From Planctomycetales bacterium (GTDB taxonomy: Bacteria > Omnitrophota > Gorgyraeia > Zapsychrales > Zapsychraceae), in contig SBBO01000030.1 in the NCBI GenBank assembly GCA_005239675.1, positions 1 to 36,405 on the forward strand: a stretch of 36,405 nucleotides of DNA, in the 5' to 3' direction. The translations under genes were made by a program, and so were the position numbers. Of the stretch, positions 5,371 through 5,997 are shown piece after piece. The notes beneath the pieces are model-generated. The model saw nothing but the letters and a program-made list of their open reading frames with translations. It was not told where the DNA came from and ran no database searches. The first letter of the stretch is position 1. Each line of letters opens with the position of its first letter.

Positions 5371-5396
5371 CCTGTTTACAATGATGAATCATACAA

Positions 5397-5466
5397 GCGG
5401 GCGATGAGAATCGAACTCACGTATCCAGCTTGGAAGGCTGGTGTTCTACCATTGAACTACGCCCGC
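5397..5466 (-). tRNA. tRNA-Gly (TCC anticodon)
   Basis: A 70-base cloverleaf folds on the minus strand. The acceptor stem is GCGGGCG/CGCCCGC, the D arm GTTC...GAAC, the anticodon stem CCAGC/GCTGG with loop CTTCCAA, and the T loop TTCGATT. The anticodon TCC reads glycine codons. CCA is not encoded. It is the last tRNA of a three-gene cluster reading leftwards. Confidence 0.95.
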
Positions 5467-5553
5467 AAATTACCATAATCTTTATCTAGATAATTTGCCA
5501 GTCCCGCATTCCTCATTCCTCTATTATTTTGTTGAGATTAGCGGGACGCCCGC
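5460..5553. repeat. 80-bp mini-element at the 5' end of tRNA-Gly, with 7-bp direct repeats
   Basis: An 80-bp element (5467-5546) is flanked by perfect copies of CGCCCGC (5460-5466 and 5547-5553). The inner copy is nucleotides 1-7 of tRNA-Gly. The element is nearly identical to the one at tRNA-Thr, differing by two substitutions and a 7-bp tandem duplication (ATTCCTC). It contains inverted repeats AAATTA...TAATTT at one end, a perfect palindrome TTATCTAGATAA, and GTCCCGC...GCGGGAC at the other end. The pattern resembles a small insertion with target-site duplication. Confidence 0.75.
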
Positions 5554-5585
5554 GGAAGACTAAACGTACCCATCAGCCAAAAAAT

Positions 5586-5667
5586 GGGCAGAGGCGGATT
5601 CGAACCACCGAAGCGCAAGCGCAACAGATTTACAGTCTGTCCCCGTTGACCGCTTGGGTATCTGCCC
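5586..5667 (-). tRNA. tRNA-Tyr (GTA anticodon)
   Basis: An 82-base class II tRNA folds on the minus strand, with acceptor GGGCAGA/TCTGCCC, anticodon stem ACAGA/TCTGT with loop CTGTAAA, a long variable arm and T loop TTCGAAT. The anticodon GTA and the long variable arm fit tyrosine. CCA is not encoded. Confidence 0.95.
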
Positions 5668-5760
5668 AGTCTATCTAAAAACTTAATGGTAACTGGTCAG
5701 GAATCAACGATCAAAAAAGTTCAATGAATGACGTTGATTGCTGCCCAGTCTATCTAAAAA
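5662..5760. repeat. 20-bp direct repeat enclosing a hairpin insert upstream of tRNA-Tyr
   Basis: A perfect 20-bp direct repeat starting CTGCCCAGTC occurs at 5662-5681 and 5741-5760. The first copy includes six bases of the tRNA-Tyr acceptor strand plus 14 bases of leader. The 59 bases between the copies contain a perfect 8-bp inverted repeat, AATCAACG (5702-5709) and CGTTGATT (5732-5739). The insert differs from the Gly/Thr element, but the architecture and spacing (79 bp) are alike. Confidence 0.7.
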
Positions 5761-5767
5761 TTCATAA

Positions 5768-5839
5768 GCTGGCGAGAGGAATTGAACCCCCGACCCGCGG
5801 TTTACAAAACCGCTGCTCTACCAACTGAGCTACGCCAGC
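5768..5839 (-). tRNA. tRNA-Thr (TGT anticodon)
   Basis: A 72-base cloverleaf folds on the minus strand, with acceptor GCTGGCG/CGCCAGC, D arm GCTC...GAGC, anticodon stem GCGGT/ACCGC with loop TTTGTAA, and T loop TTCAATT. The anticodon TGT is threonine. It is the first tRNA after the promoter at 5969-5997. CCA is not encoded. Confidence 0.95.
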
Positions 5840-5919
5840 AAATTACCATAATCTTTGTCTAGATAATTTGCCAGTCCCGCATTCCTCTATTATTTTGTTG
5901 AGATTAGCGGGGCGCCAGC
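5833..5919. repeat. 73-bp mini-element at the 5' end of tRNA-Thr, with 7-bp direct repeats
   Basis: A 73-bp element (5840-5912) is flanked by perfect copies of CGCCAGC (5833-5839 and 5913-5919). The inner copy is nucleotides 1-7 of tRNA-Thr. It matches the tRNA-Gly element at 71 of 73 aligned positions. Because the flanking 7-mers differ between the two sites and each equals its own tRNA's end, duplication of one tRNA region cannot explain both. It lies in the transcribed leader between promoter and tRNA. Confidence 0.75.
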
Positions 5920-5968: not shown

Positions 5969-5997
5969 AATATAACAAATATAATAGTGGCTGTAAA
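5969..5997 (-). promoter_or_regulatory. sigma70-type promoter for the tRNA cluster
   Basis: On the minus strand TTTACA (5997-5992) and TATATT (5974-5969) are separated by 17 bases, with five of six matches in each box. The start would fall near 5962, about 43 bases before the outer copy of the tRNA-Thr acceptor strand, so the mini-element would be part of the primary transcript. Confidence 0.6.

Follow-up and report, generated by a model that had tools for sequence, protein, structure and literature searches.

Transfer RNA genes are a classic place for mobile DNA to integrate, nearly always at the 3' end and in the form of large elements carrying an integrase. Elements of the IS200/IS605 group carry hairpins and, within the element, a short sequence through which the target is recognised by base contacts. 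The elements described here are tiny hairpin structures that recur precisely at the mature 5' ends of many different tRNAs across the Omnitrophota, an uncultured phylum. They leave partial tRNAs behind and carry the complement of their target. A search limited to the open-access literature found no account of elements of this type, either in Omnitrophota or at the 5' ends of tRNAs. The window analysed, a stretch of 36,405 nucleotides, is the entire contig C4 of the source genome (G000, 1.32 Mb, 87% complete). Two features in this window probably represent recent copies of a mobile element of Ca. Omnitrophota that is small and non-coding, consists of two hairpins and inserts at mature tRNA 5' ends.

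The minus strand of the window encodes a tRNA cluster ordered Thr-Tyr-Gly (ARAGORN). Sequences are read on this strand, with X denoting the outer copy of the tRNA 5' nucleotides and X' the internal 5-nt complement. The cluster is preceded by a sigma-70-type promoter at 5969-5997 (TTTACA, 17-nt spacer, TATATT; sequence and alignment). Re-derived coordinates agree with the preliminary description in placing two cores directly 5' of tRNA-Gly and tRNA-Thr, at 5467-5546 (80 bp) and 5840-5912 (73 bp), with 71 of 73 aligned positions identical. The length difference is a 7-bp tandem duplication in the Gly copy (GAGGAAT on the minus strand), which leaves two aligned mismatches. Both copies follow the same plan of an X heptamer, hairpin 1 (YCCCGC...GCGGGA), X' (CTGGC), hairpin 2 (AAATTA...TAATTT) and an intact tRNA. 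At the Gly site, the outer copy GCGGGCG (5547-5553) is followed by hairpin 1 (5501-5547, GTCCCGC...GCGGGAC, with the additional 7-bp tandem repeat in its loop), X' (5497-5501), hairpin 2 (5467-5496, AAATTATCTAGATAAAGATTATGGTAATTT, its stem entering tRNA nt 1-2) and the intact tRNA-Gly(TCC) at 5396-5466 (ARAGORN; Rfam RF00005, 75 bits), whose nt 1-7 GCGGGCG lie at 5460-5466. X' here pairs at 4/5 positions with nt 1-5 of tRNA-Gly and at 5/5 with those of tRNA-Thr. At the Thr site, the outer copy GCTGGCG (5913-5919) precedes hairpin 1 (5875-5912, CCCCGC...GCGGGA), X' (5870-5874), hairpin 2 (5840-5869, AAATTATCTAGACAAAGATTATGGTAATTT) and the intact tRNA-Thr(TGT) at 5767-5839 (ARAGORN; Rfam), with nt 1-7 GCTGGCG at 5833-5839.

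Several details reported earlier needed adjustment. The flanking repeats do correspond to tRNA nt 1-7, read on the forward strand as CGCCCGC (5460-5466/5547-5553) and CGCCAGC (5833-5839/5913-5919), though the direct repeat is 8 bp rather than 7 bp in both copies (GCGGGCGT for Gly, TGCTGGCG for Thr). The inverted repeat AAATTA/TAATTT is perfect as described, with its boundary drawn too short, since it extends two bases into the tRNA (GCAAATTA/TAATTTGC). The inverted repeat GTCCCGC/GCGGGAC is perfect in the Gly copy only, and the Thr copy carries one C.A mismatch. Recognition ends or RNA stems had been offered as roles for these repeats. Both kinds of stem seem structural, and hairpin 2 takes in the first bases of the tRNA itself.

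A related element lies at 5682-5760 on the minus strand, next to tRNA-Tyr(GTA) (5584-5668, minus strand; ARAGORN). It is bounded by a 20-bp direct repeat, with the inner copy at 5662-5681 and the outer copy TTTTTAGATAGACTGGGCAG at 5741-5760. Inside are a hairpin AATCAACG/CGTTGATT, X' as TGACC, and hairpin 2 in inverted orientation, with TTACC first. The repeat takes in 13 leader bases. The inverted hairpin 2 was found again at tRNA-Tyr in two other genomes (G052 and G067).

Insertion itself is shown by two empty sites. In G000 and G001, the sigma-70-like promoter (TTTACA-17-TATATT) is followed by the outer heptamer in the alignment. In G002, of the same genus, and less closely in G004, the same promoter directly precedes tRNA-Thr without the element, and the tRNA start of G002 and G004 aligns with the outer copy in the window. 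The promoter is common to G001 and G002, with a weaker likeness in G004. The leader from promoter to outer heptamer in G001 equals in length the leader from promoter to tRNA in G002, and the outer heptamer thus lies where the tRNA originally began. The proposal that insertion at the tRNA 5' end duplicated the tRNA start is supported by the empty Thr site, and the view that the tRNA was left intact is likewise supported. At some tRNAs the age of the element allows for vertical inheritance, and the copies need not each represent a separate insertion. On contigs C48 and C42 of G065 (L006 and L036), the element, tRNA-Thr and downstream sequence are common with a few differences, and the point where the two contigs diverge is exactly the outer heptamer. 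A tRNA-Thr 3' fragment is present downstream.

The core occurs in four copies in G000, two of them away from tRNAs. On contig C7 (L005:5543-5695), two tandem core copies sit between convergent glycosyltransferase and methyltransferase genes with no tRNA. The units are bounded by GCTGGCG, GCGGGCG and GCGGGCG and share one heptamer. The orthologous junction in G005, at a GCTGGCG site, is empty of the element. If the C7 flanks of G000 were joined at one heptamer, the resulting frame would end in ...FESAGEGQ with two stops, near the ...FEAAAK of G005. The unequal flanks and the shared heptamer could also reflect site-specific recombination, in which a small circle carrying a heptamer enters matching heptamers at tRNA 5' ends and creates hybrid flanks and tandem units. 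Tandem units occur as well at tRNA-Arg in G032 and in L119 and L134, and tyrosine recombinases usually have overlaps of 6-8 bp. However, direct repeats reach 15-34 nt at other tRNAs, many different heptamers are in use, and neither a circular form nor an attached integrase was seen. We therefore regard recombination of this kind as unlikely.

The element belongs to a wider family with a strong link to tRNA genes. Scanning for the pattern of a GCTGGCG repeated ahead of tRNA-Thr gave 45 matching stretches, of which nine are from Omnitrophota. Several of these share GCTGGCG-YCCC...GGGACTGGC while having very different hairpin loops. Most matches in Hymenobacter and other organisms outside the Omnitrophota were set aside as chance or coding sequence, judged from the few that were read. 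Half-tRNA-Thr units were seen upstream of the full tRNA-Thr start in L159 (Ignavibacteria, in tandem), L156 (Melioribacter) and L118 (Bacteroidia), and a similar process may operate outside the Omnitrophota. A covariance model of the core, built from ten copies and searched against 384 Omnitrophota genomes, matched 18 of them at E<=0.01, a patchy distribution. The matches nearly all adjoin a tRNA or tRNA fragment, mostly Thr. The others lie at Gly-TCC (G050), Gly-GCC (G035) and Arg (G032, G043), with a Pro copy in G043. The outer heptamer differs with the adjacent tRNA and equals its own nt 1-7 for GCTGGCG, GCGGGCG, GCGCCCG and GCGGCGG. An unselected look at G050 found the two-hairpin leader also before His, Thr-GGT, Gln, Ala and Pro, each time with the heptamer of that tRNA. 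The family is thus found at Thr, Gly, Arg, His, Gln, Ala, Pro and Tyr, with a similar plan at Phe. Hairpin apices are common across families (TTTTCTnn...ATTnnnGGnA) and stems vary.

The link to tRNA 5' ends was also evident in unselected material. A survey of 219 Omnitrophota tRNAs, from complete or unselected tRNA sets, found 20 with a partial copy, anchored at the tRNA 5' end, in the 130 bp upstream. Mirror controls on the same 219 tRNAs yielded no downstream 5' copies, no upstream 3' copies and six downstream 3' copies, and the upstream test was negative for all 40 tRNAs of Escherichia coli K-12. Exact copies of nt 1-7 at -130 to -30 numbered nine against 0.74 expected by permutation (122 unselected tRNAs), hence the repeat of the tRNA start exceeds chance. 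All tRNAs were masked in this permutation because Thr-Tyr-Gly clusters alone are misleading, with neighboring tRNAs matching one another. Across the four sets of contigs and loci checked, the density of family hairpins within 600 bp of tRNAs exceeds that of the remaining sequence by a factor of 8-37. Per 10 kb, the near and far densities are 3.2 and 0.22 in G036 (280 kb, one contig), 14 and 0.9 in G032, 24 and 0.6 in G043, and 3.8 and 0.5 at the Thr loci of relatives. Near-random control loci were weak 15-30 nt BLAST matches in 92 relatives, mostly due to chance.

Upstream of intact tRNAs, dead tRNA copies are split by hairpin pairs at nt 7/8, in the D-loop or in the anticodon loop. Such copies were found for Arg in G032, Arg and Pro in G043, and Thr in G036 and G032. 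At L203:3160-3720 (G032), an intact tRNA-Arg with flanking hairpins lies inside a tRNA-Arg split into 5' and 3' parts that overlap by CAGC. At L205:260-790 (G043), two successive dead tRNA-Pro, each split by a hairpin pair in the anticodon loop, precede the intact tRNA-Pro. A D-loop-truncated copy occurs upstream of tRNA-Val(CAC) on contig C37 of G000 (L040), where a tRNA-like 5' fragment ending in CTCAG is followed by a hairpin. A distinct palindromic repeat (CCGACGTTCGC...CGTCGG type) occupies the D-loop position of partial tRNA-Thr copies in L007:1555-1690 and L103 (G001, G005). A family hairpin lies close upstream of tRNA-Ser at L204:4917-4948 (G043), which makes tRNAs with a long variable arm neighbors too. 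The tmRNA of G043 (L215) has its own first 20 nt copied about 100 bp upstream, together with an CTGCTTCGC-type hairpin. The same hairpin type is present at tRNA-Phe and tRNA-Glu of G065.

The copied stretch has a fixed start and a variable end. Among 36 catalogued copies, a set that includes loci chosen for carrying the element, the copy begins at tRNA nt 1 with 0-2 bases of extra match in 29. The end falls at nt 7-9 in 17, at nt 10-15 in 13, and later in the remainder, up to about nt 34. A fixed start at the RNase P site (the mature 5' end) combined with a variable end is unlike the fixed-length duplication made by an ordinary transposase. The preliminary description envisaged a simple non-autonomous transposon whose target duplication is fixed at 7 bp, and in that form the reading is not supported. 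The copied stretch can be as short as nt 1-7 or as long as about nt 1-34, and the C7 flanks are unequal (GCTGGCG left, GCGGGCG right). The core also holds a 5-nt complement of the target tRNA that ordinary target duplication does not predict, and the hairpins form arrays around many tRNAs and also within decayed tRNA copies.

A variable repeat length could instead be explained if tRNA genes underwent tandem duplication or template-switching during replication, with the hairpins made by fold-back synthesis and no mobile element involved. The succession X, hairpin, X', hairpin, X looks like forward-reverse-forward copying, and the repeats at Tyr and in L150 take in 12-13 leader bases. Such a process would not account for a near-identical core at Thr, at Gly and at the non-tRNA site on C7. 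Hairpin apices (TTTTCT...GGAA) are moreover conserved across families, and GGGACTGGC is conserved in unrelated genomes. Copying errors without a mobile element are for these reasons quite improbable. A template-switching copy of the mature tRNA was also considered. It would explain the fixed start but was rejected, as reverse transcriptase (PF00078) is absent from G000 (87% complete); the domain is present in 3 of 14 genomes.

Pairing between X' and the tRNA start is a further regular feature of the family. In 15 distinct element/tRNA pairs, 70 of the 75 positions of X' pair with nt 1-5 of the adjacent tRNA, whereas permutations gave 40 on average and 56 at most. The segment taken as X' was the one directly ahead of hairpin 2, a choice made by eye that introduces a mild bias. 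In G000 and G050, the Gly copies retain CTGGC, the Thr-type complement, with 4/5 pairing only. This fits an origin of the core at a Thr site. Stems of at least 8 bp cross the tRNA 5' boundary in 11 of 122 tRNAs, compared to 0.55 in shuffles. In thermodynamic folding of 17 pre-tRNAs, X' occupies the inner copy, and the outer copy thereby gains the 3' acceptor strand with a probability of at least 0.68 in 12 of them. The arrangement is bistable, which may be a cost or a switch.

A leader under selection to control tRNA maturation or folding would give such pairing a function. Two sense copies (outer X and tRNA nt 1-7) and two antisense copies (X' and the 3' acceptor strand) allow two exclusive pairings. 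X and X' each track the tRNA, the folding results favor the outer copy, and the core alignment holds pairs changed on both sides. A selected switch is, however, hard to reconcile with a presence in only 18 of 384 genomes and an absence from the orthologous site within the same genus. Hairpin 2 is inverted at Tyr, and copies exist outside tRNAs and within dead tRNA fragments. Where the two copies differ at Thr (G041, G032, G044), the outer copy decays and the inner copy pairs perfectly with the 3' strand in 3/3 cases, which indicates selection on the inner copy, the outer one being a relic. A selected switch consequently seems improbable to us. The same observation bears on an intron-like insert between tRNA nt 7 and 8, which would be spliced from the pre-tRNA and make the outer copy the true acceptor strand. 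The folding preference for the outer copy and the related inserts in D-loops and anticodon loops of tRNA copies are what such an insert might produce. We rejected this reading as the 3' strand is always matched by the inner copy where copies differ. Interrupted tRNA copies furthermore lack 3' halves, and no bacterial splicing route is known for the nt 7/8 site. Splicing of this kind is very improbable.

We suggest a small mobile element as the best explanation. Insertion, more than one copy in the genome, tight tRNA linkage, the start at nt 1 and the complement to nt 1-5 were all observed. The element would insert at the mature 5' end of a tRNA gene and leave the intact tRNA downstream. The first 7-9 tRNA nucleotides would remain on the far side as the outer copy, with other relics of up to about 34 nt. 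Mobilization would presumably occur in trans. The element, 73-80 bp and non-coding, has no transposase or integrase attached. No Y1 transposase was found in G000 (87% complete) or G043, and a scan of viral contigs for the core gave no match. The complementary segment CTGGC may help to find or hold the target heptamer. Such a role would account for insertion at Thr, at the near-matching Gly heptamer and at the GCTGGCG on C7 that belongs to no tRNA. Once inserted, the element would be transcribed within a long structured pre-tRNA leader for RNase P to remove. It is a tentative and rather doubtful proposition that the internal 5-nt segment acts as a nucleic-acid guide. It would pair with the opening bases of a gene for a tRNA (or a tmRNA-like RNA) to direct insertion beside the mature 5' end, and a change in the segment could redirect the element to a different tRNA. 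If the complement does guide insertion, the element would represent a very small retargetable insertion system. If not, the family is a natural experiment on how much structured leader a pre-tRNA can bear and still mature. The elements also explain tRNA fragments that are otherwise open to misreading in the annotation of Omnitrophota genomes.

Known mobile elements share some of these features. MITEs and small non-autonomous IS derivatives are likewise short and non-coding, with end direct repeats and several copies alongside empty sites, as found for the Omnitrophota element. MITEs, though, have a constant target duplication, whereas the copies here span nt 7-34 with unequal C7 flanks. MITEs also have terminal inverted repeats, whereas the core ends YCCCGC...TAATTT are not inverted repeats. 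A search for a parent element (PF01797, PF00078) found no related transposase, and unlike MITEs the element is strongly linked to tRNA starts. REP, REPIN and BIME sequences with their RAYT are similar in being short hairpins, often paired and clustered, with little sequence (PMC3116915, PMC3733652). The REP/RAYT tag is a GTAG or CGTC tetranucleotide at the hairpin foot (PMC3733652), which is absent from the Omnitrophota hairpins inspected. In the latter, stems are variable and apices conserved. RAYT is a Y1 transposase, a gene not found in the two genomes searched, and REP sequences lie between protein genes rather than at tRNAs. Mitochondrial double-hairpin or repetitive hairpin-forming elements, such as the sponge RHE (PMC2800124), have one or two hairpins, are mobile, are patchy among relatives and have no coding capacity. 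The Omnitrophota element likewise has two adjacent hairpins and is mobile and non-coding, but it is bacterial, duplicates the tRNA 5' end and carries the target complement. Integrative elements that target tRNAs (phages, islands, SSV-type) resemble it in the tRNA target and in an insert bounded by an intact tRNA and a partial copy. They usually use the 3' end, span kilobases and encode an integrase, whereas the Omnitrophota element uses the 5' end, spans 73-80 bp and has no genes. The likeness to IS200/IS605 lies in the hairpins and the short internal target-matching sequence, with the differences that no transposase was found in G000, no fixed left-hand tetranucleotide is present and direct repeats occur at both ends. 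Retroelements, which could make a target-primed or template-switching copy of the mature tRNA, are defined by a reverse transcriptase, and PF00078 is absent from G000. Rfam searches of the core returned only tRNA above the gathering score, and nothing but tRNA at permissive E-values. Although it departs in at least one defining feature from every named bacterial family tested, the Omnitrophota element acts like a small palindromic mobile element.
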